Source: Nocardia rhamnosiphila NBRC 108938 (GTDB taxonomy: Bacteria > Actinomycetota > Actinomycetes > Mycobacteriales > Mycobacteriaceae). Taken from it: a DNA stretch of 64,000 nucleotides. The stretch's first letter is position 1. Each line of letters starts with the position of its first letter. The position numbers were made by a program, and so were the translations under genes. Shown here piece by piece: positions 21,561-64,000 of the stretch. The notes beneath the pieces were generated by a model. The model ran no database searches. It was given only the letters and a program-made list of their open reading frames with translations, and had not been told where the DNA came from. Location of the stretch: positions 1,612,001 through 1,676,000 of the forward strand of contig NZ_JOAJ01000001.1 in NCBI RefSeq assembly GCF_000720425.1, given 5' to 3'.

Positions 21561-22949
21561 TCACCGCATATCCGGCGACCGGGGCCCGGGTACTGATGGA
21601 CGGGACGGCGTCCGGTCCGGACGGCCGACCGCCTCCCCACCGCAACCGGCCCGCTCGGCGAGTTCCCGCACTGCACCACGGATTCCTGTCGCGAGCACGT
21701 CGATATCGGGAGTGGAGTCGTAGTCGCCGGTGATGCCGAACACCAGGTGATCGTGATAGCTGAGGATCGCGATCGCGGTCCGTAGGCGCAGGGCGATCGG
21801 CACCGCGGGCAACAGTTCCAGCACCGGCCGGCCCTGCAGGGTGAGCGGGTGCCGGGGACCGGGCACATTGGTCGCCAGCCCCGCGATCCCGTGCTGGGGA
21901 AACCGGGCCGCGAGCCGCAGCGTCCACGCCACGGCAGCGAACGGTAGCCCGCGCGCCAACCCGAGAACGAGGTGTTCGGCACGCGGCGCACCGCCCGACT
22001 TGTGCGCTTTCATGGTCATATGGATCGCGCGTAGCCGGTCGACCGGGTCGACGCGGCCGACCGGCAGATCGGGCAGCACCGCCGAGACCCGGTTGTCCAT
22101 GACATATTTCGCGTGTTCGGCACGCATGGAGACCGGAACCAGAATCCGAAGCGGGTGCGCCTCCGGTTCCTCATCGCGCCCGAGCAACAGGTCCCGGTAT
22201 CCCGCGGTGATCGCGGCCAGGACGACATCGTTGACGGTCACGTGGTAGGCGGCACCGATAGCGGAAACCACCGGCAGCGACAGGCGCACCGCGGTGAACC
22301 GGCGCCGGTGCCCGATCGGACCGTTCAGCGACGACACCGGACCCTGCTCGAGAACCGCGGCACCGACCGGAACGAGGCTGCGCACGGCGCCGAACACCGC
22401 CGCGGGAAGCTTCGCCCACCCCGTGGTTCCCGCCTGCTTCCGTACCCGGCCGGTGCTGCGGGCCGGCCCATTGTCCACCGGTAGCGCATCGCAGAGGGTC
22501 TCGAACACGGCCAGCCCCGATATTCCGTCCACCAGACTGTGATGGGCCTTCAGGATCACCGCCCAGCGATCATCGGCCAAACCCTCCACCGCCACGCACT
22601 CCCACAGGGGACGGTCCCGGTCGAGTCGCTCCTCGATCTCGGCTGCCACCAACTCCCACAACGCTCTGTCCCGTCCCGGCCGCGGCACTGCCACCCACCG
22701 CAGGTGATGGCCCAGATCGAAAGCCGCGTCGTCTTCCCATTCCGGTGCGGCCATGTCGAGCACGGTGCGACGCACCCGCTGCCGCATCCGGGGCATTCCG
22801 GCAATTCGCGTGTTCAGCAGGGCCGCGAACTCCTCGTGTCGCGGCGGCGGGCCGGCCAGCACCGCTGTCACCGCGATGCCCAGACTGATCCGCCGGTCGG
22901 CGTCCTCCAACTCGATGAATCCGGTATCGAGCGGCCGTAGCTCGTTCAC
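21561..22949 (-). CDS. WS/DGAT wax ester/triacylglycerol synthase (Tgs1-like)
   Basis: The 462-residue protein aligns with mycobacterial Tgs1: LDTGFIELEDADRRISLGI at the N-terminus, WEDDAAFDLGHHLRWVAVPRPG, and the catalytic HHSLVDG near residue 136. It transfers acyl-CoA to diacylglycerol or fatty alcohols to make storage lipid. Tgs1 (Rv3130c) is a DosR-regulon gene in M. tuberculosis. The GTG start at 22949 overlaps the stop of the upstream WS/DGAT gene (GTGA), so both enzymes are co-translated. Confidence 0.85.
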   Translation of the reverse strand: MNELRPLDTGFIELEDADRRISLGIAVTAVLAGPPPRHEEFAALLNTRIAGMPRMRQRVRRTVLDMAAPEWEDDAAFDLGHHLRWVAVPRPGRDRALWELVAAEIEERLDRDRPLWECVAVEGLADDRWAVILKAHHSLVDGISGLAVFETLCDALPVDNGPARSTGRVRKQAGTTGWAKLPAAVFGAVRSLVPVGAAVLEQGPVSSLNGPIGHRRRFTAVRLSLPVVSAIGAAYHVTVNDVVLAAITAGYRDLLLGRDEEPEAHPLRILVPVSMRAEHAKYVMDNRVSAVLPDLPVGRVDPVDRLRAIHMTMKAHKSGGAPRAEHLVLGLARGLPFAAVAWTLRLAARFPQHGIAGLATNVPGPRHPLTLQGRPVLELLPAVPIALRLRTAIAILSYHDHLVFGITGDYDSTPDIDVLATGIRGAVRELAERAGCGGEAVGRPDRTPSRPSVPGPRSPDMR

Positions 22950-24370
22950 GATATGCCCGAACGCTCTCCGGAGCGTGCCACCATCCCGTCGTGACGCGGA
23001 TTCGGTTGCGGGGCGAACGCAGCCACCTTGCGGAAACCGGAGGCCAGGCATTCGGTGAACTCCGGTAGATCCGGCACCGCCGCGGTGTCGGCGTTGATCC
23101 CCACCGCGCATGTTCCCATGTGGGAGATGAGCGTCGCGTTGAACGCGGTACCGATGGTCGGCCCGAAGGCGTGTATCCGCTCGACCTCCGCGCCCGCCAG
23201 ATACAGCGGAACCGGGGAGCCCGCAACATCCGAGGCCACGAAATCGACATGTCTGAGCATCTGCGCGACGGCACCGGCGGGAAGCCGGTTGAACACCGCC
23301 GCCACCGCGTTGGACCAGGGGATCGCCGGTTCCCGGCGCCAACGCTCCACGAGGCCACGCACCGCCCACATCAGTTCCCCGACATCGTCGGTGTCGGCGG
23401 GAACGGCGAACCTGGCCAGGGTGATGCGATTACCGCCGGGCGGGTCCTCGGCAGTCCGGGTACTGATCGGCACGGTCACCCGAACCCGGGTGAGCGACAC
23501 GTCGTAACGCCGATGGTAGGAACGCAATCCGAGCAACAGCGCGGTGAGAAAGACGTCGTTGACGGTGCATCCCGCCCGAACCGCGGGCTCCTCCAGCTGG
23601 GCGAATGGCACTTCCAGCACGGTCAGCCGCCGGCCGAGTCCACGTCCGATCATCACCGGCGACATGGTCTCGGTAACCGGACGGGCCAGGCGAGCCAGGG
23701 AGGAAACCATCGCCGCACCGTCACGTACGGCGCCCACTGGATCGGCCGCGGCACGCACCGATGCGGTGGCGACCGCGGCGGCGCCACCCCGCACCAACCC
23801 CCATCCGGCGGACCAGTTCCACGCGAGTACATCGGCGACCGGCGCCGCCCGATGTGGTTCCCGTTCGCGCACCGGTCCGCGTTCGGTGCCCTCCCGGGTG
23901 AAGTCCAGTACTTCCGTGGCGATCTGCATACCGCCGACGCCGTCGGTGAGGCTGTGATGAACTTTCAGCACGGCCGCGCTTCCGCCGCCGGGCCGGCCCG
24001 ACAGCAGCGTGAAGGTCCACAGCGGTCGCACCGGATCGAACGCTGTCATCACCTCGTTGCGGGCGAATTCGAGCACGGCCGCCTGATCCGCCGGTGGCGG
24101 CAGCGCGATACGCCGGAGATGCCAGGAGAGATCGAAATTCGGGTCGTACTGCCAGCGCGGCGGGGTGAGCCCGAGCGGCGCCGCGGCCAGTACATGGCGG
24201 AAACCGGGCGCGACCCGTGTCCCCCGGTCGAAGACGCGCACCAGCCGGTCCCACTCCGGTTCCGAGTCGAGGACCAGGACCGAGACGATTGTCGACCGCA
24301 GCGCGGGATCCTGTTCCATACTCCAGGTGAACAGGTCCGACTGGGTCATATGGGACTCGCGAATGCCCAT
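22946..24370 (-). CDS. WS/DGAT acyltransferase, second copy
   Basis: The 474-residue protein belongs to the same family: LFTWSMEQDPALRSTIVSVL at the N-terminus, catalytic HHSLTDG near residue 142, and the C-terminal GTAFNATLISHMGTCAVGIN of the family's DUF1298 part. It probably makes wax esters or triacylglycerol. It is the first gene of a two-gene operon with the Tgs1-like gene. A later ATG at 24349 is possible. A DosR-like box (24452-24465) lies about 82 bases upstream of the start. Confidence 0.82.
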   Translation of the reverse strand: MGIRESHMTQSDLFTWSMEQDPALRSTIVSVLVLDSEPEWDRLVRVFDRGTRVAPGFRHVLAAAPLGLTPPRWQYDPNFDLSWHLRRIALPPPADQAAVLEFARNEVMTAFDPVRPLWTFTLLSGRPGGGSAAVLKVHHSLTDGVGGMQIATEVLDFTREGTERGPVREREPHRAAPVADVLAWNWSAGWGLVRGGAAAVATASVRAAADPVGAVRDGAAMVSSLARLARPVTETMSPVMIGRGLGRRLTVLEVPFAQLEEPAVRAGCTVNDVFLTALLLGLRSYHRRYDVSLTRVRVTVPISTRTAEDPPGGNRITLARFAVPADTDDVGELMWAVRGLVERWRREPAIPWSNAVAAVFNRLPAGAVAQMLRHVDFVASDVAGSPVPLYLAGAEVERIHAFGPTIGTAFNATLISHMGTCAVGINADTAAVPDLPEFTECLASGFRKVAAFAPQPNPRHDGMVARSGERSGIS

Positions 24371-24451
24371 GCGCAGCCGCTTTCATCGATCGGAGTCGAT
24401 CCCTGCGGAGTCGACCTCCCTACTGTCGCTCCCGTCACCGCGCGGCCGGCA

Positions 24452-24465
24452 GAGGCAAAGGTCAC
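24452..24465. promoter_or_regulatory. DosR-like box GAGGCA-AA-GGTCAC
   Basis: This matches the 6-2-6 half-site layout of mycobacterial DosR sites (core GGGACT-WW-AGTCCC and variants). It is 87 bases upstream of the WS/DGAT start. The right half is GGTCAC, a variant repeated at 27043, 60161 and 61305. Confidence 0.4.
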
Positions 24466-24525
24466 CGATTCGGACGAGTGGGTGACGAGCACCGCGCGCA
24501 ACGACCCGGACCCGCGGTCGCCCGG

Positions 24526-24680: not shown

Positions 24681-25595
24681 GTGTCGAGTACCAGCGACTC
24701 CCTAGCCATGGACGAACGCCCCGAGGGCGACCGGGTACCTCCGGTGATCCTCGGTACCGACGGCTCGTCCGCGTCGTTGAACGCCGCGCGCTGGGCCGCA
24801 TACATCGCCGGAGCACTGCACACCCCGCTTCTGGTGGTACACGTCCTTCCACTTCCCGGACACCGGCACGCCGCAGGTGCGCGACCGTGGTTCCACGGGC
24901 GCCGCCTCGCGAACCCGGTCCCGATCCCGGACCCGGACGCGGCGGTCGTCGTCCGCCGGACCGCATTGATCATCGGCAGCTGCTCCGCACCCGCCGTCGC
25001 GGAGCCGGACACCGAAATCGCCACCGGGTCGGCCACGGTGGTCCTCGTGGAGCGCAGCCGCCGAGCCCGGATGCTGGTGGTGGGTGCCCAGACGGCGTTC
25101 GGGGAGAGGCGAACCGGCCCGACGACGACGGGCGTCGTCGCACGGGCATACGCCCCGGTGGCCGTGTGGCGGGGTATGCCGGGCCATCCGATCCCGCGGG
25201 AGCGGCCGGTGGTCGCCGCGTTCGACGGCAGTGAGTCGACACTGCCGGCGCTGGTCCAGGGGTTCGAGTTGGCGGAAGCCCTCGGCGCGGGCCTCGAGGT
25301 GGTACGCCCTCGGTGCGGTATGCCGGGCGGTCGGTACGGCGCCGCAGCGGTGGTACCCCCGTCCCGGATCGGCGGCTCGACGGCGGGAATGGCCCGCGAA
25401 CATCCCGCGGTCAGGTCGAGCGAAACCACGGTCTCCGGTTCGCTCGCACATGTCCTGGCGCGCAGATCGGCCACGTCCCAACTTCTGGTCATCGCCGACC
25501 GACGCACAACCGGTGCGTCGGCGGCACCCGGGCCGACCGTCATGTTCCTGCTCCGTCATTCGAGGTGCCCGGTGCTCATCTGCCGTCCCCGATGA
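24681..25595 (+). CDS. tandem universal stress protein, degenerate ATP sites
   Basis: The protein (304 residues from GTG 24681, or 295 from ATG 24708) has two universal-stress domains. The first starts VPPVILGTDGSSASLNAARW and the second RPVVAAFDGSESTLPAL. Unlike the other three copies in this window, the ATP-binding G-x2-G-x9-G-S loop is broken in both halves: GAQTAFGERRTGPTTT and ADRRTTGASAAPGPT. It is probably a non-ATP-binding member. Tandem universal stress proteins are a hallmark of the DosR regulon, and a DosR-like box lies upstream. The start is uncertain because no strong ribosome site is visible. Confidence 0.72.
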   Translation: MSSTSDSLAMDERPEGDRVPPVILGTDGSSASLNAARWAAYIAGALHTPLLVVHVLPLPGHRHAAGARPWFHGRRLANPVPIPDPDAAVVVRRTALIIGSCSAPAVAEPDTEIATGSATVVLVERSRRARMLVVGAQTAFGERRTGPTTTGVVARAYAPVAVWRGMPGHPIPRERPVVAAFDGSESTLPALVQGFELAEALGAGLEVVRPRCGMPGGRYGAAAVVPPSRIGGSTAGMAREHPAVRSSETTVSGSLAHVLARRSATSQLLVIADRRTTGASAAPGPTVMFLLRHSRCPVLICRPR

Positions 25596-25612
25596 GCGCA
25601 CCCGACGCCGGC

Positions 25613-25927: not shown

Positions 25928-26908
25928 TTACCGCAGCCGGTCGACCACTTCCGCGAGCGGGCGGCGGGGCGAGACGGGCACGGCGCCGGCGGCGACTTCC
26001 GCCCAGCCGACGCGAATGATCAGTTGTGGGAACCCGATACCGTCGAGTACCTCGCCCTGTACCGCCGCCCGGGTATCCGGCAGTTCCAGGGCCTCGCTCA
26101 TGGGGCAGGTCGCCATGCCGAGCACGGTCGCCGCGAGCAGTACAGCGCTGCCGGTTTCACCTGCCCGCAGGCGGGACAGACGATCGTCGGCAGGGGTGTG
26201 GATCAGGAGGAGACTGCCGCCCTGGGTCATCTCCTGCACCCCGGATTCGCTGAGGGTGGCTTCCGCGAATTCCCGGGTGAACGGATCGTCGTCCGCGACC
26301 GGTACCGCATTGCGCGCGGGTACGCCGTCGGCCGACGCGTGCCGCCCGCTCCACATCGACAGCTCGGCCCGGTACGACGGGTCGCGGCGATGCTGTCCGG
26401 CCGCCCGGGTGAATGCCGACATCAGGGTGGAGCGCCCCGGGCCGGTAGTGATCTCCCGCACCTCGGCGCCCTCCTCGGTACCCGCGGCCAGTAGCGTGGC
26501 CAGATCGGCGGGCGGAGTCTCCCACGACGAAACCCGTCGGCGATCGGTATGCCTGCGGTTGATCGCACGGGCCAGTTCCTCGTCCTCCGCGGTCGGCGTC
26601 ACGCGGGCGAACTCGATCGCGGCCAGATGCGCCGGATCCGCGGGATTCGGAATGCGGTGCACGATCGTCCGCCACCCCAGAGACCTGGCCGCGACCCGGA
26701 AATGGTGCAGCGCGGCCCCGCAACTGAGGATCTCGTCGCGCCCGTCCGGATCCGCGCAGGCCAGCCGCCGGCTCTCGTCGGCGTACAAGTGCACTGTCCG
26801 GTCACCCACCCGCCACTGCCAAGGTTGCGTATTGTGCACCGACGGGGCGCGAACGGCCAGCGCGAGGGCGGCGCGGACGGCCTCGGCGTCGGGGTGGATC
26901 CCGGTCAT
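25928..26908 (-). CDS. Acg-type nitroreductase-fold protein
   Basis: The 326-residue protein has the Acg-family signature RAPSVHNTQPWQW near residue 20, followed by DPDGRDEILSCGAALHH. The C-terminal half contains the second nitroreductase-like unit (GETGSAVLLAATVLGMATCP). Acg (Rv2032), Rv3127 and Rv3131 of M. tuberculosis are strongly DosR-regulated. Their role may be flavin storage or redox rather than nitroreduction. It is one of three copies here. DosR-like box 27043-27056 lies upstream at 27.0 kb. Confidence 0.85.
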   Translation of the reverse strand: MTGIHPDAEAVRAALALAVRAPSVHNTQPWQWRVGDRTVHLYADESRRLACADPDGRDEILSCGAALHHFRVAARSLGWRTIVHRIPNPADPAHLAAIEFARVTPTAEDEELARAINRRHTDRRRVSSWETPPADLATLLAAGTEEGAEVREITTGPGRSTLMSAFTRAAGQHRRDPSYRAELSMWSGRHASADGVPARNAVPVADDDPFTREFAEATLSESGVQEMTQGGSLLLIHTPADDRLSRLRAGETGSAVLLAATVLGMATCPMSEALELPDTRAAVQGEVLDGIGFPQLIIRVGWAEVAAGAVPVSPRRPLAEVVDRLR

Positions 26909-27042
26909 AACAGGTCCTCACTTTCGAATCGGTCCGCGCCCTCGGCCCGGAGAAAGCTGCGGCGCCTACACACCCCGGCCCTCGGGGTGGTCGCGGGCAG
27001 GTGTTCGCCTCTCAGCTTCGCGGCCGCCCGAGCGCGCCGAGA

Positions 27043-27056
27043 CAGGCGAAGGTCAC
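27043..27056. promoter_or_regulatory. DosR-like box CAGGCG-AA-GGTCAC
   Basis: This is a 6-2-6 element 135 bases upstream of the Acg-type gene (leftward) in the divergent gap. Confidence 0.35.
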
Positions 27057-27129
27057 CTGTCGAAGTGTCCTCCGGCAGTACCTCCACAGGCTCGTGCCGT
27101 AGGCCCGGCGCGAGCCCCGGCCCGCGCTC

Positions 27130-27200: not shown

Positions 27201-27755
27201 ATGACACCGAAGCGCCCGCATATCGCAGTCCTCTATGCCACCGAAGAGGGTTCCACCCGTGATATCGCCGAATACGTCGCGGCCGATCTCGAGGAGCGCA
27301 GCGCCGAAGTCGAACTGCACGATATCGACCACGCGCCCGACCCGTCCCGGTTCGACACCGTGATCCTGGGCAGCGCCATCCACGACATGGACTTCCTCCC
27401 GGCGGCCGCCGACTATCTACGCCATCACCGCGACCAGCTCGCCACCACCGACCTCCGGCTGTTCGGGGTGGGCCTCGGCCCGGCCCTGCGCGGCCCCCTC
27501 GGCCGCCGGCTGGGCAGGCTGGTCCCGCCGAAGATCAGCGCACTGTGCAAGGAGGTCGCCGCCCGGGACTACCGGGCGTTCGCCGGGCACTACGAACGCG
27601 CGGGGGTGTCGTTCAAGGCCCGTGCCCTCTACCGGCTCATGGGGGGCGGACGCTACGGCGATTTGCGCGACTGGCCCGCGATCATCGCCTGGTCCACGGC
27701 CCTCGGTGACTCGCTCGGCCTGCCCCGCGCCCGCGTCACCGTCATTCATCCCTGA
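27201..27755 (+). CDS. flavodoxin-domain protein (HemG-like)
   Basis: The 184-residue protein begins IAVLYATEEGSTRDIAEYVA, the FMN-phosphate loop of flavodoxins, and continues VILGSAIHDMDFLPAA. This matches the flavodoxin_5 / menaquinone-dependent protoporphyrinogen oxidase (HemG) family. It may carry electrons or act on heme precursors. The ATG follows TGAGGA. It is the first gene of the PEP synthase operon, ending 30 bases before ppsA, and a DosR-like box precedes it. Confidence 0.75.
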   Translation: MTPKRPHIAVLYATEEGSTRDIAEYVAADLEERSAEVELHDIDHAPDPSRFDTVILGSAIHDMDFLPAAADYLRHHRDQLATTDLRLFGVGLGPALRGPLGRRLGRLVPPKISALCKEVAARDYRAFAGHYERAGVSFKARALYRLMGGGRYGDLRDWPAIIAWSTALGDSLGLPRARVTVIHP

Positions 27756-27785: not shown

Positions 27786-30080
27786 ATGGGCCGATATGTT
27801 GCACCTATCGCTCATCTAGGCATCGGCGATGTGGCGGAAGCAGGGGGCAAGGGAGCCAACCTCGGCGAACTCGTGGCGGCGCGGCTGCCGGTTCCGCCCG
27901 GTTTCGTCATCCTGCGTGCCTGCTACGAACACGTGATCACCCACGGCCGCCACGGTGCCGAATTGGACCGTCTGCACGCCGCGGCGCTCGACGCGGTCAC
28001 CGACGGGCCCGAACTGGCGAAACGGTGCCGCGCGATGCGCGAACTGATCCACGACACCGCCCTCGAGCCTTCGGTACGCGAGGTCATCGGCTCGGAATAT
28101 CGGGCACTCGGCACGGATACCCCGGTCGCTGTGCGTTCCTCCGCGGTCGGGGAGGACAGTGCGACCGCCTCCTTCGCGGGCATGAACGCGACCCTGACCA
28201 ACGTGCGCGGTGAGGAGAAGCTGCTGGACGCGGTGATCGAATGCTGGGCCTCCCTCTTCACCCCGCGCGTGCTGGCCTACCGGGCGCGGCGCAAGATCAC
28301 CGACCGTCCGCAAATGGCCGTGGTGGTGCAGGAAATGGTGACCGCGCGGGTGTCCGGAGTCGCCTTCACCGCCGACCCGGCCACCGGCCGCGAGGACCGC
28401 GTCGTGGTGGAGGCCGCGCGCGGCCAAGGGGAGGTGGTGGTTTCCGGCGCCACTGAACCCGATACCTACCTGCTCGACGCCGCCGGGCCGACGCTGCTGA
28501 GCACTCGCGGGGGCCACCAGGAGTACGCCGTGGTGGCCGACGCCGACGGTGACCGGCGGGTCGCGCTGTCCGCGGCCGACACCGCCGCACCTGTCCTGCG
28601 CGAATCCGAGGCCGTCGCTGTCGCACGAATGGCTCTGGCCGTCCAGGAACATCACCACGGCACACCACAGGATGTGGAGTGGGTCTTCGACACCGAGCGG
28701 TTGTGGCTGGTGCAGGCTCGGCCGATCACGACCCTGCCCGGGCGGCGCGCCGGCGACACCGGCGGTACACCGGAGGGTTCCGGAATCCTGGTCCGCGGGC
28801 TCGCGGCGGCTCCCGGCTCGGCCACCGGACCTGTCCGGGTCCTCGATTCCCCTGCCCGGGGCGACACACTGCGCGACGGCGAGATCCTGGTCGCGCCGAT
28901 GACGAACCCGGACTGGCTGCCCACATTGAGCCGCGCCGCCGCCGTGGTCACCGATAGCGGCGGTATGACCTGCCACGCCGCCATCGTCGCGCGGGAACTC
29001 GGCATACCCTGTGTCGTCGGCGCGCGCACCGCCACCACGACGCTCACCGATCACGCGGTGGTCACGGTCGACGGTGCCACCGGCGAGATCCGTGCCGCGG
29101 CCGCGGGTGGAGGTGTGAAAACCATGGCTCGTGAGCCGGACGCCGCCGCGACGGTGGGAGCGGAACCGACCGCCACTCGGGTGTACGTCAACCTCGCGCT
29201 TCCCGAAACCACCGAACGCATCGCCGCGACCGATGTCGACGGCGTCGGATTACTCCGCGCGGAAACCCTGCTGACCCGGGCTCTGGACAACCGGCACCCA
29301 CGTGATCTGATCGCCCACGGCGAGCAGGAGCGGTTCGTGGCCCGCCTGTCGGAAACACTGCACCGCATAGCGACCGCTTTCCGGCCCCGGCCGGTGGTGT
29401 ACCGGGCCAGTGATTTCCGCAGCAACGAGTTCCGCGGGCTGGCCGGAGGTGACCGCTACGAGCCCCGCGAGAACAACCCGATGATCGGCTACCGCGGCTG
29501 CTACCGCTACATCCGCGATCCCGAGGTGTTCCGGCTCGAGCTGTCGGCGCTGGCGCGCGTACGCGAGCAGTCACCGAACCTGCACCTGATGATCCCGTTC
29601 GTCCGTACCCGCTGGGAACTCGAGTCCTGCCTGGAGCTGATCGATTCGAGTCCGCTCGGGAGTCAGCGTCATCTGCATCGCTGGGTGATGGCCGAAGTAC
29701 CGTCGGTGATGTACTGGCTTCCGGAGTACGCCGGGCTCGGCATCGACGGCGTCTCCATCGGCAGCAACGATCTCACGCAGCTCATGCTCGGCGTCGACCG
29801 GGACTCCGAACAGTGCAGCGAGCTGTTCGACGAATCCGATCCGGCCGTACTCGACGCGATCGCACAGATCGTCACGACCGCCCGCGGCGCGGGCATCACT
29901 TCCTCGCTGTGTGGCCAGGCGCCGTCGAATCGTCCGGAGTTCACCGAGCACCTGGTGCGGATGGGGATCACCTCGGTGTCGGTGACGCCCGACGCCGTTC
30001 CCGCGGCCCGCCGCGCGGTTGCCGCCGCCGAACGCCGTCTGCTGCTCGACCACGCGCGGTCCGCGGCGGCCCCCCGGTGA
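27786..30080 (+). CDS. ppsA: phosphoenolpyruvate synthase
   Basis: The 764-residue protein has the three domains of PEP synthase. These are an N-terminal ATP-grasp ([29 protein letters not shown]), the phosphohistidine domain ([18 protein letters not shown], His397) and the C-terminal PEP/pyruvate barrel. The barrel carries [23 protein letters not shown] and the catalytic-Cys loop SSLCGQAPS. It converts pyruvate and ATP to PEP, AMP and phosphate. GGAGGA at about 27775 supports the ATG. Its stop overlaps the next gene (GTGA). A pps gene also lies in the M. smegmatis DosR region, which supports a hypoxia role. Confidence 0.9.
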
Positions 30081-38194: not shown

Positions 38195-38281
38195 GCCGAC
38201 ACCTCCGCTGCCCCGCGCACACCACCGGGTCGCCGCGACCCCACTCCCTGCATACTGACGGACCCCGGCAGCCTCACGAGA

Positions 38282-38295
38282 GTGCCGAAGGTCCC
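38282..38295. promoter_or_regulatory. DosR-like box GTGCCG-AA-GGTCCC
   Basis: This is a 6-2-6 match with a perfect right half, placed to drive the leftward Acg-type gene (centre about 94 bases from its ATG). Confidence 0.55.
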
Positions 38296-38356
38296 CGGTC
38301 CCGGAGGATCAGGGCCCGGGCCCGCCGCACCGGCACCCGAATATCGCCGCCGAGAA

Positions 38357-41347: not shown

Positions 41348-44808
<3,461 letters not shown>

Positions 44809-51850: not shown

Positions 51851-54330
<2,480 letters not shown>

Positions 54331-54376: not shown

Positions 54377-54392
54377 ATACCCCCTGGGGTAT
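54377..54392. promoter_or_regulatory. CsoR-family operator, site 2
   Basis: ATACCCC-CT-GGGGTAT is a perfect palindrome in the divergent gap between the MMPL gene (start 54330) and the Rv2466c-like gene (start 54503). Confidence 0.72.
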
Positions 54393-54406
54393 ATTGGTAG
54401 AAGACG

Positions 54407-54422
54407 ATACCCCCCGGGGTAT
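54407..54422. promoter_or_regulatory. CsoR-family operator, site 3
   Basis: ATACCCC-CC-GGGGTAT is a perfect palindrome, 30 bases from site 2. One site may control each divergent promoter. Confidence 0.72.
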
Positions 54423-55590: not shown

Positions 55591-56879
55591 CGGCCCGTCA
55601 CATCGAGGGTCAGGAAATGCGCCGAACAAGAGATACACGGATCGTAATTGCGGATCGTTCGTTCGCAGAGTTCGGTCAGCGCCGGATCCGGCAGGTCGAG
55701 GTGGGCCCCCACCATCCGGCGTAGGTTCTCCTCCATCACCGCCTGGTTCTGCGAGGTCGGCGGCACGATGGTGGCGGACCGTACGAGAGCGTCGGCACCG
55801 ATGTCGTACCGGTGGTACAGCAGCCCCCGGGGCGCCTCGCTCACGCCGTAGCCGGTACCCGCACGCGGTCGCACGGGGACCGCCGGGCGAGGCGGGCGCC
55901 GGTAGCCGGCGATGAGTGCCAGGGCCTCCTCCATCGCATAGGCGACCTCCACCAGCCGGACCAGAATGCTGCGGAACGGATTCCGGCAGACGCTACCGAG
56001 CCCGACCTCCGCCGCGAGCCGGCGGGCGACCGGCGACAGCTGACCGGAGTTCAGCGCGTACCGGGCCAGCGGGCCGGTGAGGTAGCGGCGGCCGTCGAAT
56101 GTGGCGTACAGCGCCGTGGAATGCCGCACCTGACGCTCGACCAGGTGAGCGGCAAAACCGTCGGCGGGAAAGAGTAGACCGCCGCTGGTCCGGACCTCGC
56201 CGGTTTCGATGGCGTAGCGCGTCGCATCCGTCGCCGAGACGAAATCGCAGTCCAGTTCGGCCTCGGGGAATTCGAACTCGGCCACCCGCCGGGCAATACT
56301 CACCGCACTGCCCAAACCCCGGCGCAACTGTTCGGCCACGGGGGTGAATTCCCGTGGCTCGGGCGCCGAATAGAAACCGCCGAGGCGGACGTTCACGGGA
56401 TGGATCGCGCGGCCACCGATGAGCTCGAGCAGCATATTGCCCGCTTTCTTCATCGCCAGCCCCTGCTCGACCAGCTCCCGCTCGACCCGGGCCAGCGCCA
56501 CCGCGTCGGGAAATCCGAGGAAATCGGGGATGTGCAGCAGGAAGATATGCAGGCAGTGGCTGGCGATCCACTCTCCGCAGTAGAGCAATCGGCGCAACTC
56601 GCGCAACGGTGGATCCAATTCCACCTCACAGAGCTGTTCCAGAGCATTGCAGGCGCTCACCTGGTAGGCCACCGGGCAGATTCCGCAGATGCGGGAGGTG
56701 ATGTCGGGCGGCTCGGTGTAGGCCCGGCCACGCAGAAATGCCTCGAAGAAGCGCGGCGGCTCGTAGATCCGGAGTTCGGCGGACTCGACGGCACCGTCGT
56801 GCACGACGATGTGCAGGGCCCCTTCACCTTCCACCCGCGCCAGCGAATCGACGGTCAGTGTTCTACGCCGGGTCGTCAC
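55587..56879 (-). CDS. [NiFe] hydrogenase group 3b, large (alpha) subunit
   Basis: The 430-residue protein has both nickel-binding motifs: [10 protein letters not shown] near residue 61 (L1) and [10 protein letters not shown] at the C-terminus (L2). It is followed by a short tail that the adjacent protease would cut. The group 3b type is indicated by the size, the L1 form and the linked NAD(P)-linked subunits. It carries out reversible H2 oxidation coupled to NAD(P). The GTG start overlaps the small subunit end by 17 bases. M. smegmatis Hyd3, of this group, is DosR-controlled. Confidence 0.9.
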
Positions 56880-57636
56880 AGCGGTGCTCCGCGAATTCGG
56901 GTGCGCCGCACGCGTAGGTCCGGAAGGCACGATCGACCTCGTCGACGGACATACCGTTGATCCGGAGAATCGGCAGCAGCGCGTGGATATTGGGCCGGGC
57001 CATCGGGCCGAAACAGCCGAAACAGCCCCGATGGTAGGCCGGGCACAGCGCCCCGCACCCCGCCTGGGTGACCGGCCCCAGACACGGAATCCCCTCGGCG
57101 ACGGTCACGCAGGTGGTGCCGCGGCGTTTGCATTCGGTGCAGACGCTGGTGTTCGGGATATCGGGAGCCCGCCCGGCCAGGAAGGCGCACAGCGTGTCGA
57201 GCAGCTGCCGGCGATCGATCGGACAGCCGCGCAGCTCGAAATCGGCCGGGACATGGTCGGAGATCGGCGTGGACGTGGACAAGGTCGCGATGTATTCGGG
57301 CTGCGCGTAGACGACCGAGGTGAATTCCTCGATCTCGGCGAAATTACGCAGTGCCTGGATACCGCCGTGCGTCGCGCACGCCCCGATCGCCACCAGAATG
57401 CGTGACTGCGCACGGATTTCGGCGACCCGCCGGATTTCCTCGGGGGTGCTCACCGAGCCTTCTACCAGGGAGACATCGTAGGGGCCCGGCTCCACCGCGC
57501 TCGACGCCTCCGTGAAATGCACGATGCGGATCCGGCCCGCGAGCGCCAGCAATTCGTCTTCGCAATCGAGCAGGGTGAGCTGACATCCATCGCAGGAAGT
57601 GAACTTCCAGACCGCGAGAGTCGGTGGCGCGCTCAT
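56863..57636 (-). CDS. [NiFe] hydrogenase group 3b, small (delta) subunit
   Basis: The 257-residue protein carries the proximal iron-sulfur cysteines in [17 protein letters not shown] and LRGCPI. Extra cysteines come later: [11 protein letters not shown] and a Cys-rich end, [20 protein letters not shown]. It passes electrons from the nickel site to the gamma and beta subunits. The ATG at 57636 overlaps the gamma stop (ATGA). There is no Tat signal, consistent with a cytoplasmic enzyme. Confidence 0.9.
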
Positions 57637-58487
57637 AATTCCGGCACCGCCAGCAGCGGCTCGGCCACCGCGTAATCGACGATCGGGCCATCCCGGCACA
57701 GCAGCAGGGGGCCCAGCTGACAGTGCCCACACCGGGCGACACCGCATTTCATGTTCCGCTCCAGCGATACCCGGATACGTTCGCCGGGCACCTTCTTGCC
57801 GAGCAGCGTCTGGGCGCAGAATCGCATCATCGGCTCGGGTCCGCACAGAAAGCCTGTGGTCCGGGCCGGGTCGACATCCAGCTGCGCCAGCGGCTCGGTG
57901 ACGAAACCGATCCGCCCCGTCCAGCCCGGGCAGGGATGGTCCACGGTACGCAGCACGTCGACGGAATCGGTGTGCGCCCACCGGTCCTGGTCCTGCCCGA
58001 ACAGCACTTCCGCGGGCGAGCGGGCGCCGGTGATCACGGTGACCCGCCGGTAGTCGGCACGGGCGGCGAGCACAGCGAGTACGAGCGGTCGCAGCGGAGC
58101 CAGCCCGAGACCGCCGCCGACGACCACGATGTCGCCGCCGGCGGCCGCTTCCACATCCCATCCGGTGCCGAACGGCCCGCGTACCCCGATCAGCCCGCCG
58201 AGCGAGGTGTCGCTCAGCGCGCGACTCACCGCGCCGACAGTGCGGATCGTGTGCTCGAGCAGCCCGTCCTCGGCGGTGGGGTCACCGCTGAGCGAGATCG
58301 CGACCTCCCCCACGCCGAAGCTGTAGAGCATCATGAACTGTCCGGCACGGAAAGGTCCGGCCCGACGGTGGACCGGCCGGAGCAGCAACGTGACCGTGTC
58401 CCGGGTCCGTAGTGTGCGCCGTACCACCCGATACGGCAGCATCACGTCCTCCGCGGCGGACAGTTCGGACCGCACCACGCTGGTCAT
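57633..58487 (-). CDS. hydrogenase gamma subunit (FAD/NAD(P)-binding)
   Basis: The 284-residue protein is a ferredoxin-NADP reductase-like flavoprotein. It has an FAD domain ([19 protein letters not shown]), the nucleotide-binding loop [16 protein letters not shown] and the C-terminal CGPEPMM. A [2Fe-2S]-type cysteine set closes it ([19 protein letters not shown]). It links the hydrogenase to NAD(P)H. The ATG overlaps the stop of the upstream cyclic-nucleotide-domain gene (ATGA). Confidence 0.88.
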
Positions 58488-58975
58488 GATCCACCGCAGC
58501 TGGGGTGCCAGGGCTTGTCGGCCGGGTTGCGGTACAGGTCGATCAGGCGGGCCCGCGTGGCCTGTAACCGGATGACCAGCACCTCCGTCAACGCAAGCAG
58601 TAGCGCCCGGCCGAACCGCGGATCATCGGCCGAGAGCCGGTTCAACGCGGTGGCATCGAATTCGACCGCCTCCACCGGCTCGGTGGCCAGCGCACCGAAG
58701 TGCCAGCGGTACGGGGGCACCAGCCACGACCAGCCGAGCAGGTCACCGCGGTGCAGGGTTTGCAGAACGATTTCGGTGTGCCCGCCCACCCGCGCGTCGA
58801 GCCGTATCTGCCCGCCGCGGATCAGCCAGCACCGGTCCGCCGGCTGCCCCTCCTGGATCACCCGGTGACCGGCCGGAAACGTGACCTCGTGTCCCGCCCG
58901 CGCCAATGTCCGCAGCTCCTCCCGGTCGAGGGCCGCCAGACTCGGAAACGCCGACAGATCATCAAGAACCGGCAT
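58484..58975 (-). CDS. stand-alone cyclic-nucleotide-binding-domain protein
   Basis: The 163-residue protein is a single cNMP-binding beta-roll (residues about 10-130: VTFPAGHRVIQEGQPADRCWLIRGGQIRL, RGDLLGWSWLVPPY). A C-terminal helix follows, but no DNA-binding wing is present. The phosphate cassette is degenerate, so ligand binding is uncertain. It is embedded between the beta and gamma subunit genes and overlaps both, so it is made with the enzyme. It may be an allosteric or assembly partner of the hydrogenase. It is not a Crp-type regulator. Confidence 0.8.
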   Translation of the reverse strand: MPVLDDLSAFPSLAALDREELRTLARAGHEVTFPAGHRVIQEGQPADRCWLIRGGQIRLDARVGGHTEIVLQTLHRGDLLGWSWLVPPYRWHFGALATEPVEAVEFDATALNRLSADDPRFGRALLLALTEVLVIRLQATRARLIDLYRNPADKPWHPSCGGS

Positions 58976-60089
58976 CCGTGGTCTCCTCGGCCGCTGCGGC
59001 GAGGCTCGCCACCTCCGCCGTCAGGTCGATGCCGGCCGGGCACCAGTCGATGCACCGTCCGCAGCCCACACAGCCGGAGCTGCCGAACTGCTCGTGCCAG
59101 GTGCCGAGCTTGTGGCTGAGCCATTGCCGATAGCGGCTTTCTCCGCTCTGCCGCACATCTCCGCCGTGCACATAGGAGAAGTCGAGTTCGAAGCACGACG
59201 CCCACCGCTCCCAGCGCTCGGCGTGGTCGCCGGTGAGGTCGGTGATGTCCTCGGTGGTCGTGCAGAAACAGGTGGGGCAGACCATCGTGCAGTTTCCGCA
59301 GGTGAGGCAGCGTGACGCCACATCCTGCCAGTGCGGGGATTCCCGGGAGTCGCGCACCAGGCGCGGTAGATCGACATCCGGCATCGTCCGGCCCATCTTC
59401 CCGGCCGCTGCCGAGACCGCGTCACGGGCCTGCGCGACCTCCGCGTCCCCGGCTTCTCGCACGGACCCGAGTTCGCCGAGTACCTCCGCGCCGGCCTCGG
59501 AGCCCACGTCGACCACGAATCGGTGCTCGGGCCCGGTCTGCTCGGTGAGTGCGAGGTCGTATCCGGCTGTCACCCCGGGCCCGGTGCCCATGGACGCGCA
59601 GAAGCACACACCACCCGGTTCCGTGCAGTTCGCGGCGACCACGAACAGATCGCCGGTGCGCGCGGTGAACCCGGCATCCGGCTGGGCGCCACCGCCGAGA
59701 ACCCGGCGCAGTATGCCCATGGCCGCCAAGTCACAACCGCGGACACCGAGAAAGGCCGAACGGGCGGGCACCGCCTCCGCCGGTTCGGGTTCGAGATCGG
59801 GGCCCATGGCGGAAATCCTGCGCCGCGGCGGATGCAGAAACTGTTTCCAAGAGCCCGGGCCGGCGGAATGCGCGAACACGGCATGGTCGGCGCGACGGCG
59901 GAGCCGGTAGTATCCCGGGGCGGTCTCCACACCCCATCCATCGGGCAGTTCGGATCCCGATTCGAGTTCGTCGAGCACCACCGCACCGTCGCGGACACGC
60001 GGTCCTATCACCCGGTATCCGCGCGCACGCAACACCTCCACCAGCCGATCCAGGCCCGCACGGTCGATCATCGCCGTCGCACCCGGCAT
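58962..60089 (-). CDS. hydrogenase beta subunit (4Fe-4S, HyhB-like)
   Basis: The 375-residue protein carries two 4Fe-4S ferredoxin motifs: CLTCGNCTMVCPTCFC and CVGCGRCIDWCPAGI. A conserved upstream region (FLGVRGCDLAAMGIL, GVCFCASMGTGP) is typical of the sulfhydrogenase beta family. It accepts or passes electrons in the group 3b complex. Several starts are possible near 60098. I chose ATG 60089, eight bases after a GGAGG. It begins the operon, and a weak DosR-like box lies 72 bases before it. Confidence 0.85.
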   Translation of the reverse strand: MPGATAMIDRAGLDRLVEVLRARGYRVIGPRVRDGAVVLDELESGSELPDGWGVETAPGYYRLRRRADHAVFAHSAGPGSWKQFLHPPRRRISAMGPDLEPEPAEAVPARSAFLGVRGCDLAAMGILRRVLGGGAQPDAGFTARTGDLFVVAANCTEPGGVCFCASMGTGPGVTAGYDLALTEQTGPEHRFVVDVGSEAGAEVLGELGSVREAGDAEVAQARDAVSAAAGKMGRTMPDVDLPRLVRDSRESPHWQDVASRCLTCGNCTMVCPTCFCTTTEDITDLTGDHAERWERWASCFELDFSYVHGGDVRQSGESRYRQWLSHKLGTWHEQFGSSGCVGCGRCIDWCPAGIDLTAEVASLAAAAEETTDAGS

Positions 60090-60160
60090 CATCACCACCT
60101 CCGATCGGTCCGGACACCTCGCCCGCTTCCGAGTCTGGACCGGTCGGACAGCCCCCGCGA

Positions 60161-60174
60161 GAGAAGAAGGTCAC
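60161..60174. promoter_or_regulatory. weak DosR-like box GAGAAG-AA-GGTCAC
   Basis: This 6-2-6 layout has a good right half only, 72 bases from the hydrogenase operon start. Confidence 0.3.
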
Positions 60175-60204
60175 CGATCGGCATCGCCGTGCGCGTCGGG
60201 GGTC

Positions 60205-60485: not shown

Positions 60486-61067
60486 TCATCCGGCGGACCG
60501 AACGTGCGCGGTATCCACCACTCGGGCTGCTTCGACACCGGCGACCGTCTGGATCATGGCCGTCAGGACGCGCCGCTCGGCCTCATCGGCACAGGAGCCA
60601 TGGACGGTGACCGTCCCGTCGGCTACCTCTACTTCCCATCCGCGTTGGCTGCCCGAGTAGTCGTCGAGCAGGGAGCACACCCGCGCTTCGATCACACCCT
60701 GGTTCAACGCGAAGGCACGGAGTAGATCGCTACGCGATATGACGCCGACGAGCACCCCGGCCGCGACGACCGGAAGCGACCGGCGATGGTGGTCGAGCGC
60801 GGCCTTCACTACGTCGGATACCTCGGTGGTGGGCTCGACCACCTCCACCGGGGTCGACATCGCCACCCCCACCACCGCCGCGGCGTTCCGGGATTCGAGC
60901 GCGGCCATGGCATCGGACTCGGACAGGAGGCCGACCACCCGCTCCCGGTCATCGACCACCGGCAGCGCCGCGAAACCGTGAGCGGTCAGGAGTCCGACCG
61001 CTTCCGAGAGCGGTGTCTCCCGGCGGACCGTGACGACGGGGCGGCTCATTATGTCGCGTGCACGCAC
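60486..61067 (-). CDS. CBS-CBS-BON protein, second copy
   Basis: The 193-residue protein has two CBS motifs (ARDIMSRPVVTVRRETPLSEAV, VVGLLSESDAMA; VISRSDLLRAF) and a BON domain (GWEVEVADGTVTVHGSCADEAERR). It is clearly paralogous to the protein at 50832, with the same domain borders. GTG start at 61067 follows GGAGGGAGC. It reads leftward, upstream of the hydrolase relic and the hydrogenase operon. It is probably an Hrp1-like dormancy protein. Confidence 0.82.
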   Translation of the reverse strand: MRARDIMSRPVVTVRRETPLSEAVGLLTAHGFAALPVVDDRERVVGLLSESDAMAALESRNAAAVVGVAMSTPVEVVEPTTEVSDVVKAALDHHRRSLPVVAAGVLVGVISRSDLLRAFALNQGVIEARVCSLLDDYSGSQRGWEVEVADGTVTVHGSCADEAERRVLTAMIQTVAGVEAARVVDTAHVRSAG

Positions 61068-61195
61068 GGTGATCAGCTCCCTCCGGCGGGCCTGTTCCCA
61101 CAGCAGCCCCTTTGCCGAAGCGGCGGAACATACTGTTCCTCACCACACTCGTCATCGGCGATCACGGCCGATAGTGCAGAAGGTGCTTCGGGACG

Positions 61196-61209
61196 AGGAC
61201 CAATGTCAT
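61196..61209. promoter_or_regulatory. DosR-like box AGGACC-AA-TGTCAT
   Basis: This is a 6-2-6 element with a good left half, 129 bases from the leftward CBS-BON start. Confidence 0.35.
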
Positions 61210-61304
61210 CGGCCACGGCCTGCCCGAGCCGCACCGACAGCGCCATCGCCGCGCCACCCCCGCAACCCGGCCGCCGCACCGGCGGGTACTCGTCCGGTAT
61301 CGAC

Positions 61305-61418: not shown

Positions 61419-62363
61419 ATGGCCCGTCCGGAGATCACCATGCGGTTAGGTTGGCGCACTGTCGCCTGGATCGCGGTGACCGTTGTGGCCACCTATATCC
61501 TGTTACCGCAGCTCACTCGGCTCGGCCGGTCCGGCGCGGCCCTGGGGGAAGCGCGCTGGCCGTGGCCGGCGGCAGCGCTGATCATGTCGATGGCGACCTA
61601 CGCGGCCGCCGCGCTGGCGCTGATGGGGGCCTGCCCTCGCCGGCTCGTCTTCGTTCGCACAATGGAAGTGCAGCTGGCGACTTCCTTTGCGAATCTGCTG
61701 CTGCCCTATGGGCTCGGCGCGACGGCGGTGAACGAACGATATCTGGAGCGGTCCGGCCTACCACCGGCCACAGCCGTCGCGACGGTTGCCATCACCGTGA
61801 GCACCGGTATGGTCCTGCACATCGCGGAATCGGCCGCGGTGGGCCTCTGGCTCGGCGGGACCGGGCAGCTGTTCTCGGCCACCCTGCCCGGCGGCCGGAC
61901 CGTGCTGATCGGTGCCGGCATCGCGTTGGCGATCTCCGGGCTGATCGTCGCGACCGCGGTGCGGCGGCCGGAGCTGCTCCGCGACGCGCGCGACACCCTG
62001 CGTTCGATGCTCCGCCTGCTCCGGCAACCCCACCGGGCGGCGCTGCTGTTCGGCGGTCAGTTGAGCGTGAACCTCGCGTATATCGCCGCACTGGGGTTCG
62101 CGCTGCATGCTTTCGGGCAGTATGTGTCCCCGGGCCGGCTGGCAGCCGCATATCTGGCCGGTTCGGCGCTCGGCGCCGTCGGCCCGACACCGGCCGGGCT
62201 GGGCGTGGTCGAGGCTTCCCTGGTCGCGGGTCTGGTGGTGGTCGGCGTGCCGACCGGCCCCGCGGTGGCCGGGGTTCTCACTTTCCGGCTGGCGACCTTC
62301 TGGTTGCCGGCGGCACTCGGCTTCTTCTCGTATCGCGCGCTGAAGCATCGCCACCGGCTGTGA
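61419..62363 (+). CDS. LPG-synthase-TM/UPF0104-like membrane protein
   Basis: The 314-residue protein has about eight membrane helices. It matches the flippase-like family of lysylphosphatidylglycerol synthase TM domains, with NLLLPYGLGATAVNERYL and GSALGAVGPTPAGLGVVEASLVAG as the family segments. Such proteins are suspected to move lipids across the membrane. No synthase domain is attached. GAGGAAAG supports the ATG. It is followed in line by a universal stress gene 123 bases on, and they may share a transcript. Confidence 0.8.
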   Translation: MARPEITMRLGWRTVAWIAVTVVATYILLPQLTRLGRSGAALGEARWPWPAAALIMSMATYAAAALALMGACPRRLVFVRTMEVQLATSFANLLLPYGLGATAVNERYLERSGLPPATAVATVAITVSTGMVLHIAESAAVGLWLGGTGQLFSATLPGGRTVLIGAGIALAISGLIVATAVRRPELLRDARDTLRSMLRLLRQPHRAALLFGGQLSVNLAYIAALGFALHAFGQYVSPGRLAAAYLAGSALGAVGPTPAGLGVVEASLVAGLVVVGVPTGPAVAGVLTFRLATFWLPAALGFFSYRALKHRHRL

Positions 62364-62486
62364 GTCGCGGTCCGCGCATCGAGAGTATTTCGTCCACCGC
62401 GACCGGTGACGACCGGCCGCAGACGCCGGCCGCAGACTCGGATAGCGTCCGTCCCGGCCACACTGCCAGAGCGGAGGCTCGACGAA

Positions 62487-63359
62487 ATGCCCACACACAG
62501 CGAACCCGCCGTTGTCGTCGGAATAGATGGATCGTCCGCGTCTTTCGGGGCGCTGGCCTGGGCAGCGCTGGAAGCGGAACTACGGCGGGCGCCGATGCGA
62601 CTCGTCTATGCCGTCGGCGCACCCGTCGACAGCGGCCCGGCCGCCAGCGCCGTCTTCGACAGAGCCGCGATGCGCGCCGAAGGTGAAGCCATACTGCGCA
62701 CCGCCGAGAAAACGGTACGGGCGACGGTCGAGCGGCCGGACGACCTCGACATCGAGACCACGGTCGCCGATCCGCCACCGGCGCTCGTACTGGTCGACCA
62801 CTCCGAAGGCGCCCTCATGATCGTCGTGGGCACCACCGGCTGTGACGCGACAGGGCGCACTCTGCTCGGCTCGGTGAGCGATTTCCTGGCCCACCACGCA
62901 CACTGCCCGGTAGCGGTGGTCCCCCAAACGACCGATGTCGATCCGGGACGACCACCCGGTCCCGTCGTGGTGGGGGTCGATGGGTCGGCGGACTGCGTCC
63001 GGGCAATCGATACGGCCTTCGACGAAGCCGCCCGCCGCCGGACGAACCTCGTCGCCGTCACCGTATGGTCGGAGCTCTTCCGGTACGTCTCCCGCGATGA
63101 GATCGCAGGACGGGCACAGGCTGTGCAGTCGGAATGCCTGGCAGGCCACTCCGAGCAGTATCCGGATATCGAGGTCGTCCGAGTCGTCGACGAAGATCTC
63201 CCCGCACGACGTCTGCTGGAGGAAGCGGACAGGGGCCGGCTGCTGGTGGTGGGTGCCCGCGGGAACGGAGGATTCGCCGGAACGACACTCGGCTCGGTAG
63301 TCCGAGCGGTTCTGCACGGCGCCGCTACCCCGGTGATCGTCGCCCGCCCCCGTGCCTGA
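62487..63359 (+). CDS. tandem universal stress protein
   Basis: The 290-residue protein has two UspA domains: AVVVGIDGSSASFGALAWAA and PVVVGVDGSADCVRAIDTAF. The ATP loops GTTGCDATGRTLLGS and GARGNGGFAGTTLGS are intact. It is the closest relative of the 38515 copy: shared HAHCPVAVVPQ and the VTVWSELFRYVSRDEI region. CGGAGG at 62472 supports the ATG. Confidence 0.88.
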   Translation: MPTHSEPAVVVGIDGSSASFGALAWAALEAELRRAPMRLVYAVGAPVDSGPAASAVFDRAAMRAEGEAILRTAEKTVRATVERPDDLDIETTVADPPPALVLVDHSEGALMIVVGTTGCDATGRTLLGSVSDFLAHHAHCPVAVVPQTTDVDPGRPPGPVVVGVDGSADCVRAIDTAFDEAARRRTNLVAVTVWSELFRYVSRDEIAGRAQAVQSECLAGHSEQYPDIEVVRVVDEDLPARRLLEEADRGRLLVVGARGNGGFAGTTLGSVVRAVLHGAATPVIVARPRA

Positions 63360-63377
63360 TCCCACCGACCTACGCGT

Positions 63378-63406
63378 CCTCCGCGCGACCTCGGCGACGG
63401 CGGAGG
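63378..63406. terminator. possible hairpin after the universal stress gene
   Basis: CCTCCGC pairs with GCGGAGG around a 15-base loop, 18 bases after the stop and between convergent genes. The 200-base gap otherwise holds nothing I recognise. Confidence 0.3.
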
Positions 63407-63572
63407 TGACCGGTGACAAGTCGGCTATCGATCCGAGTGGTGATGCCCAGCGCACTCCGCCGGCACGCCCGCGTCACATCCGTCGCGGTGACCACGGCGA
63501 GCGGACCACGGGCATCGCGACGGAGATAGCGGTCTTGGTGGCCCACGCGCGCGACCGGCGGACAGCCACCGT

Positions 63573-64000
63573 TCACAGACCCGTGGGGTAGCTCTCCGGC
63601 ACGGTGCCCGGACTCCAGCGGCCACCCGGTTCGAGCGGCTGAAGAGCCGTGGTGGACTCGATGTGGACGAGCGCATCGAACTGCCGCGCCGCACGGGTAT
63701 GGAAATAGTGGCTGCGACGTTCGGTCCCCGGGCTGTAGACGACGCCGATCGCCCGCTGAATGCGCGGCATATCCAGTAGTTCCGTCGTCGCGGACGGATG
63801 GTCGAGCCGAAGCAGGAACGCGGGCTTCCCGGTTGCGCTCAGGTGGCTCTCGAGGCTTCCGTCGAGTGGCGGACGTACGGTTTCACGTAAAGCCGGTCCG
63901 CCCCACTCCTGGGCAGCGGTGACCGTCCCCGAAGCGGTGCTGAAACCGAGAAGGCAGCAGTGGCGTCCGTGACGCTCTCTGACGAGCTGCCCGACGGTGA
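63573..64000 (-). CDS. erythromycin-esterase-family protein, C-terminal part (Rv2030c-like)
   Basis: The frame is open from the window edge to TGA at 63573-63575. It reads LLGFSTASGTVTAAQEWGGPA, the segment RETVRPPLDGSLESHL, and the typical end RAIGVVYSPGTERRSHYFHT. This is the C-terminus of the erythromycin esterase family as fused in Rv2030c, a DosR-regulon protein. The N-terminal part lies outside the window. Whether it also carries a phosphoribosyltransferase domain cannot be seen. Confidence 0.78.
   Translation of the reverse strand, partial: TVGQLVRERHGRHCCLLGFSTASGTVTAAQEWGGPALRETVRPPLDGSLESHLSATGKPAFLLRLDHPSATTELLDMPRIQRAIGVVYSPGTERRSHYFHTRAARQFDALVHIESTTALQPLEPGGRWSPGTVPESYPTGL

Follow-up and report, generated by a model that had tools for sequence, protein, structure and literature searches.

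A probable DosR-DosS hypoxia- and nitric oxide-response island with a largely metabolic gene content in a Nocardia close to N. sienata

The window analyzed here is a stretch of 64,000 nucleotides (bases 1612001-1676000 of contig 1 in a genome of 7.66 Mb in 93 contigs; positions below are counted from its first base), and it contains most of an island that is very probably the DosR-DosS hypoxia- and nitric oxide (NO)-response locus of a Nocardia close to N. sienata. A preliminary description made from the sequence alone had proposed a 42-kb DosR island that is metabolic rather than just regulatory. The island exists, and its DosRS-centered, largely metabolic character is backed by the gene families, an enriched diverged box, and conserved clustering, but it runs past the window edge at 64000 to position 66969 (21561-66969; 45.4 kb, 38 genes). 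The left limit was placed at 21561 because the gap preceding the neighboring GGDEF gene has no DosR-like box (6.3 bits). The Acg-family, universal stress protein (USP), and triacylglycerol synthase (TGS) genes that mark a DosR-DosS regulon island all lie near dosRS. Sequence comparison places the genome in Nocardia, since the closest named DosS is that of N. sienata NBRC 100364 (96% identity) when named genomes are searched with a DosS profile; of at least 575 relatives, the 80 best were kept and examined with 10 kb flanks (less at contig ends). Genes were called with a codon-usage script and all 38 island proteins were scanned against Pfam; the NCBIfam scan covered 19 window proteins and part of the edge protein, and the analysis leftward of 20215 consisted of gene calls and Pfam scans for three genes.

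The response regulator DosR/DevR (42356..43000, + strand) aligns over its full length with M. tuberculosis DevR (3c3w, the best solved relative, E 2e-95), and in that alignment Asp54 and Lys104 are kept while the putative recognition helix differs at one residue. The DosS/DosT sensor (43069..44808, +) is a GAF-GAF-HisKA_3 kinase with heme His148 (equivalent to DosS His149), distal Tyr170, and phospho-His395, three residues that are invariant across 12 aligned homologues; the earlier statement that DosR and DosS carry all key residues therefore stands. The GAF-A domain is nearer DosT than DosS (227 vs 195 bits; best solved relative, M. tuberculosis DosT GAF-A 2vzw, E 3e-66), and the position of DosS Glu87 is occupied, as in a DosT-like sensor, by a glycine (Gly83) that is nearly invariant in the 12 homologues. 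According to the accessible text of a review that also describes the roles of the heme residues (PMC4082495), glycine at this place accompanies stable O2 binding, and the redox-sensor reading of DosS is disputed. Within an author-chosen set of 33 genomes (24 of 39 Nocardia, five of genus g2, and four of family f14), the present genome has one DosS copy at E 1e-100, and 17 of the 23 other Nocardia have two to four. Directly upstream of dosR lies a gene for a GyrI-like and DUF302 fusion (41348..42214, +; PF06445, PF03625), which is found near DosS in 6 of the 80 named loci, all from Nocardia; the gene in the same place in M. tuberculosis is a USP gene.

Because scans with two M. tuberculosis-type boxes gave chance-level counts (detailed below), the box was learned from other Nocardia by expectation-maximization on 120 gaps from 13 loci, chosen from 26, with the window excluded and all gaps of each locus used, beyond those of Dos operons alone. 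A palindrome-constrained motif search of the window only was dropped, its motifs being unstable. The learned box is cggtGACcaTCGnCcc, with the dyad spacing GAC-N4-GNC. Applied to two further author-chosen samples, the same script returned GgGACtt.tGgCCCTg (13.6 bits), a form of the known DosR box, from 14 mycobacterial loci and cgGGGACtTTCGgCcCtt (14.4 bits) from 13 Pseudonocardiaceae loci, and the three motifs can be read as one box of constant spacing. At a threshold of 10 bits, sites are present in 13 of the 19 non-convergent island gaps compared with 32 of 218 background gaps (~520 kb of the same genome; Fisher p 9.8e-7), and none of 300 column-shuffled matrices matched the real one. The box before the hydrogenase operon (60159..60176, -; 14.6 bits) is among the two strongest in the island. 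Other sites lie in the gaps between Acg2 and USP2 (38280..38297, -; 13.9 bits), Acg1 and the flavodoxin gene (27041..27058, -; 12.3 bits), and CBS2 and LPG-TM (61194..61211, -; 11.8 bits), as well as before the DUF2267-USP3-CtpF genes (46190..46207, +; 13.0 bits), Acg3 (44938..44955, -; 12.3 bits), the GyrI-dosR-dosS genes (41136..41153, -; 12.1 bits), and USP4 (62404..62421, +; 11.6 bits, which would overlap a longer USP4 start at 62406). In N. sienata, 16-18 of 18 bases are kept at the 38280, 41136, and 46190 sites (all 18 at 46190), a conservation that adds little, the flanking sequence itself being 82-88% identical; of the nine best sites that do not touch a start codon, five fall where the N. 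sienata locus offers no alignment.

The gene set recurs near DosS in related genomes. Among the 80 named loci, DosR homologues were found in 64, Acg1-type and Acg3-type genes (counted as best matches) in 37 and 29, respectively, and hydrogenase genes in 3. In the sampled genomes, three markers were located within 60 kb of a DosS gene in most of the other genomes having each (OtsB1, 14 of 16; PPS, the phosphoenolpyruvate (PEP) synthase, 18 of 21; HyhL, 11 of 12), against a chance expectation of ~3% under a rough null. The OtsB1 count covers genomes with a full-length protein and excludes GH65-only matches (8 rows in 7 genomes) and one second fragment (G175), the PPS count excludes a 44% match in G150 and a second PPS piece in G160, and the hydrogenase match of G021 is a 129-residue piece. 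In G175:C14 and G160:C1, OtsB1 and PPS homologues were matched in pieces. All three markers occur together near DosS in 8 of the 32 other genomes; three of these eight (G007, G052, and G130) belong to genus g2, and G052 and G130 were taken as mycobacteria because their best DNA matches are named mycobacterial loci. Gene order and orientation vary among the five mapped relatives (own island included): the set persists near DosS, but its order is shuffled.

The nearest relative has a reduced version of the island. The Dos locus of N. sienata NBRC 100364 (L060; G177:C5) spans ~20 kb, matches 16 of 39 query proteins (80 kb examined), and shares blocks with the island at 86-89% DNA identity, in addition to its 96% identical DosS. 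It keeps, in the same order, both TGS genes, USP1, OtsB1, Acg2, USP2, the alcohol dehydrogenase and PNPOx-like genes, GyrI-DUF302, DosR, DosS, DUF2267, USP3, and an inverted CsoR/DUF302 pair. Blocks at 25.6-33.1, 44.8-46.1, 48.0-51.2, and 52.2-67 kb are absent (the last but for an 84-base stretch), and a search of the whole genome recovered neither PPS (threshold E 1e-100) nor a hydrogenase large subunit (threshold E 1e-60). The 84-base stretch, which carries the 61194 box with 17 of 18 bases kept, recurs at ~89938-90021 of G177:C5, beyond the last mapped island gene, and is perhaps a remnant of the right half of the island. Loss of the hydrogenase and PPS genes in N. sienata appears the simpler reading, since in G021, the next nearest genome, pieces of both lie within 14 kb of DosS. 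The programme can thus do without the hydrogenase, PPS, CtpF, and two of the Acg genes, none of which is present at the Dos locus of this closest relative. The GGDEF protein at the left border (20215-21486) occupies the same place in N. sienata (94%).

One module of the island appears to have a regulator of its own. It extends over 51412-54422 and comprises a DUF302 gene (51412..51819, -; PF03625), a CsoR-family repressor gene (51851..52117, -; PF02583), and an MMPL transporter gene (52183..54330, -; PF03176), with a gene for an Rv2466c-like mycothiol-dependent nitroreductase (54503..55105, +; PF22234) adjoining. Repressors of the CstR class are recognized by two conserved cysteines in the absence of a copper-ligand histidine. 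The repressor has this pattern (Cys35-Gly60-Cys64) and is thus CstR-like by its residues, which suggests, from its class, that it may sense persulfide; InrS and CsoR chains are among the solved structures closest to it. Three near-perfect ATACCCC-N2-GGGGTAT palindromes, putative CsoR-family operators, lie at 52151..52166 and within 54377..54422 (starting at 54377 and 54407) versus 0.0005 expected in 184 kb, and the same palindrome adjoins CsoR genes in N. sienata, N. puris (L062), and G170.

Several observations weigh against the reading of the locus as one DosR-DosS island. The strict M. tuberculosis box (GGGAC-N4-GTCCC) is not enriched, with one occurrence in the window and 10 places in the genome versus 7 for a control reading; enrichment upstream of the genes is found for the DosR-like box of the same dyad spacing. 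The 20-bp M. tuberculosis consensus gave 3 island matches versus a shuffle mean of 2.0 and maximum of 5 (20 shuffles). The Nocardia box is a weak motif (9.9 bits of information vs 13.6 for the mycobacterial one), and at 12 bits it still occurs in 7 of 218 background gaps, compared with 8 of 19 in the island, and the top background gap (15.1 bits) scores above any site in the island. Among the 13 best island sites, four (24707, 37003, 42348, and 50854) overlap called start codons, and in six of the 19 gaps no site reaches 10 bits. Added to these are the separate operators of the CsoR-family module, the relatedness of the sampled genomes, which are not independent, and the reduced gene set of the N. 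sienata locus described above. One alternative is a general stress neighborhood with several regulators, where DosR control would be confined to operons preceded by a good box, in about half of the gaps. With a second site in the dosR gap (42258..42275, strand unassigned; 10.6 bits), a well-placed site of at least 10 bits is present in 10 of 19 gaps, so the earlier statement that almost every gap carries a DosR-like box goes too far. Both gaps of the CsoR-family module are boxless (4.7 and 4.8 bits), and the best site off the start codon in the TGS/USP1 gap reaches 9.7 bits. The several-regulator alternative is nevertheless the less probable one, a real possibility on the minority side, given the strong enrichment of the box over the sampled rest of the genome and the nature of the six boxless gaps, three of which are inside same-strand gene runs, two in the CsoR-family module, and one before the GGDEF gene outside the island.

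The two remaining alternatives concern the origin of the clustering. A recently acquired mobile element could explain why gene order is shuffled between species and why the N. sienata locus is without large parts, but it is improbable and was already disfavored by the composition of the island (G+C 0.695 vs 0.682 in 60 kb to the left and 0.692 in 57 kb to the right), by the window being without a tRNA gene, and by the N. sienata blocks at 86-89% identity. Twelve of the 45 kb, compared with 72,556 plasmid records, showed similarity within the PPS gene only (4 records); a plasmid origin thus finds no support for the 12 kb tested. The preliminary description regarded the clustering as notable, and one might suspect that it is special to this strain and significant in its own right, because the genes of the M. 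tuberculosis DosR regulon are spread over several separate loci. Among the sampled genomes this is refuted, and we give it hardly any credence: the three markers lie together near DosS in a quarter of the other genomes, and each marker is near DosS in most genomes having it. The arrangement is the usual one in the sampled relatives and has been published for M. smegmatis and, more loosely, for S. coelicolor, so that calling it notable finds no support.

For the DosR-DosS island, the families present point to a largely metabolic output. Triacylglycerol synthesis is represented by two adjacent WS/DGAT acyltransferases (both PF03007/PF06974), TGSa (21561..22949, -), which is over the TIGR02946 cut-off, and TGSb (22946..24370, -; 4-base overlap), which is below it, in agreement with the earlier Tgs1-like label. 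The OtsB1-like call also proved correct: the protein (33041..37006, -; start uncertain, 37006-37111) is a fusion of HAD/beta-PGM-like (PF00702), trehalose-6-phosphate phosphatase (T6PP; PF02358, over cut-off), and GH65 (PF03636/PF03632/PF03633) domains. PPS (27786..30080, +) scores over the PRK06464 cut-off (729 bits vs 598) and just under that of TIGR01418, and the PfkB-type hexose/phosphofructo kinase (31369..32604, +; called start 31618) is over the TIGR03168 cut-off, both as previously named. The three Acg-type FMN oxidoreductases exceed the curated NF047509 cut-off of 199, namely Acg1 (25928..26908, -; 314.5 bits), Acg2 (37202..38194, -), and Acg3 (45046..46077, +; Acg structure 2ymv, E 2e-71); the genome has six Acg-family genes, with at least two elsewhere. 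A flavin-binding PNPOx-like protein (40494..40946, -; PF12900), presumably analogous to the Rv3129/Fsq type, precedes a zinc-type alcohol dehydrogenase (39487..40497, -; PF08240/PF00107). The four USPs noted earlier are those inside the window (all PF00582), at 24681..25595 (+; start 24681 or 24708), 38515..39381 (+), 47034..47975 (+), and 62487..63359 (+; scanned from 62406), but the whole island has five, the Pfam scan adding one at 65666-66577, outside the window. The CtpF-like P-type cation ATPase (47986..50697, +) is likewise verified by its E1-E2 ATPase domains.

The hydrogenase operon, on the minus strand, encodes an Fe-S subunit beta (58962..60098; PF17179), a flavin/NAD(P) subunit gamma (57633..58487; PF00175), a small subunit (56863..57636; PF01058), a large subunit (55587..56930; start uncertain, 56834-56930), and a maturation protease (55078..55590; PF01750, TIGR00072). 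The large subunit has both CxxC nickel motifs (RICGIC and DPCISC), and its best solved relative is sulfhydrogenase 1 alpha (9nez). The curated sulfhydrogenase equivalog models ShyA (254.7 bits vs a cut-off of 700) and HydA (234.2 vs 880), as well as the beta and gamma models, scored below cut-off; ShyA and HydA are named for single enzymes, and the group 3b assignment, which agrees with the preliminary description, draws on the relatives and the operon make-up. With the metal-binding motifs, the protease gene, and a HypD gene ~390 kb away, the enzyme looks usable. A gene for a protein of 163 aa with a cyclic nucleotide monophosphate (cNMP)-binding domain (58484..58975, -; PF00027) lies within the operon and overlaps its neighbors by 4 and 14 bases; it was also found in L107, G182, and G170 and was not matched in L070, L115, G130, and G052.

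From these families, residues, and boxes, we infer the sensing, the control and induction by DosR, the direction of flux, and the phenotype. The DosT-like heme kinase, with Gly at the Glu87 position, would sense loss of O2 or the presence of NO or carbon monoxide at its GAF-A heme, and the changed heme state would lead DosS to phosphorylate DosR. DosR would then activate neighboring operons through the diverged box of usual dyad spacing, with the hydrogenase operon and the Acg, USP, and pump genes as box-bearing targets. The induced enzymes may let non-growing cells handle flux without respiration: the TGS enzymes would deposit acyl chains in triacylglycerol, trehalose would be mobilized by the T6PP/GH65/beta-PGM-like fusion, PfkB and PPS would run lower glycolysis, the Acg and PNPOx-like proteins would hold flavins, and the group 3b hydrogenase would vent electrons of NADPH as H2. 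The metabolic picture of triacylglycerol, trehalose, glycolysis with PPS, and an H2 outlet is deduced from the enzyme families.

Other features complete the island. The flavodoxin-domain protein (27201..27755, +; PF12724) and the DUF2267 protein (46324..47037, +; PF10025) are each near DosS in 6 of the 80 named loci, all from Nocardia. An AAA kinase-type protein (30077..31582, +; PF13671 AAA_33), which we take to be Rv2004c-like, follows PPS, and a small DUF1918 protein (32805..33062, +; PF08940) and an LPG-synthase-TM-type membrane protein (61440..62363, +; PF03706) are also encoded. The two CBS-pair proteins (50832..51395, +, and 60486..61067, -, called start 61049; both PF00571) had been described as Hrp1-like. 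For 50832-51395, the one of the two tested, Rv2626c (Hrp1) is far down the list of solved relatives, and this identity was rejected; CBS pair is the appropriate label. At the window edge lies a phosphoribosyltransferase/erythromycin-esterase-family protein (63573-65609, -; C-terminal part 63573..64000 in the window), presumably Rv2030c-like, and the island ends with a small protein without a Pfam match (66574-66969), outside the window. As reported before, the window contains no HSP20 (hspX-like) gene. The genome has three, the nearest on the same contig ~53 kb left of the window (contig 1:1558617-1558907; window -53422 to -53000), and the best site in the gap before it, at 8.4 bits, stays under the 10-bit threshold. 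The reported absence of FdxA is also sustained, as one regular expression for the 7Fe-ferredoxin motif found no match in the surrounding 184 kb.

The analysis extends a well-studied latency programme to Nocardia, provides a usable DosR-like box for the genus, and describes a hydrogenase-bearing Dos island common to Nocardia and mycobacteria; otherwise, the biology is as expected. The M. tuberculosis DosR regulon resembles the island in having homologues of the Acg, USP, TGS, PfkB, OtsB1, CtpF, Rv2004c, and Rv2030c types, and it is not known to include a group 3b hydrogenase. Because the hydrogenase-bearing island is common to Nocardia and mycobacteria, the scattered regulon of M. tuberculosis, in which no such hydrogenase is known, looks derived. 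A wider scenario, offered tentatively and more doubtful than probable, is that the common ancestor of Nocardia and Mycobacterium already had the Dos regulon, with its hydrogenase, as one physical island, which then held together although its order was shuffled and modules were lost. In Nocardia, DosR would have drifted to a relaxed box (T/G at position 3), and a persulfide switch of the CstR type, equipped with operators of its own, would now be a resident module, bringing hypoxia and sulfur signals into one locus next to a sulfhydrogenase-type enzyme.

Among the literature matches listed, no title on DosR of Nocardia appeared, and a search on group 3b hydrogenase, Nocardia, and hypoxia found no paper; in the accessible text of a 2026 paper on reduction of the M. 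tuberculosis dormancy regulon (PMC13284343), the words Nocardia, hydrogenase, and cluster do not occur. The closest known system is the hypoxia-induced M. smegmatis cluster MSMEG_3926-3955 (Berney and Cook 2010, PMC2799521), which, in the available parts of that publication, resembles the island in its 31 neighboring hypoxia-induced genes near DevR/DevS, with Dos homologues, a five-gene NiFe Hyd3, a P-type ATPase, and a PEP synthase. The same parts state that the PPS, hydrogenase, and P-type ATPase of this cluster are not homologues of the M. tuberculosis Dos regulon, so what the preliminary description says of homologues of regulon genes does not extend to PPS and the hydrogenase. Unlike the M. 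smegmatis cluster as published there, the island has a cNMP-binding gene in the hydrogenase operon, GyrI-DUF302, flavodoxin, and DUF2267 genes, and the CsoR-family/MMPL module. The osdRK region of S. coelicolor (PMC5069765, as far as its text is accessible) also has USP, nitroreductase-family, and pyruvate, phosphate dikinase genes around a DosRS-type pair, and OsdR sites such as AGGGACCTTCGGCCCC have the GACCTTCG core in common with the Nocardia box. That region differs in its Nar2 nitrate reductase and development genes, and the word "hydrogenase" is absent from the accessible text. The OsdR box is 16 bp long, and a G-to-T change at position 3 cut OsdR binding by about half, according to the same text; the Nocardia box has T about as often as G there (T 0.50, G 0.39 in our alignment). 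An island of this kind is therefore already known, and what the present locus adds is a member from Nocardia with its box and extra modules.

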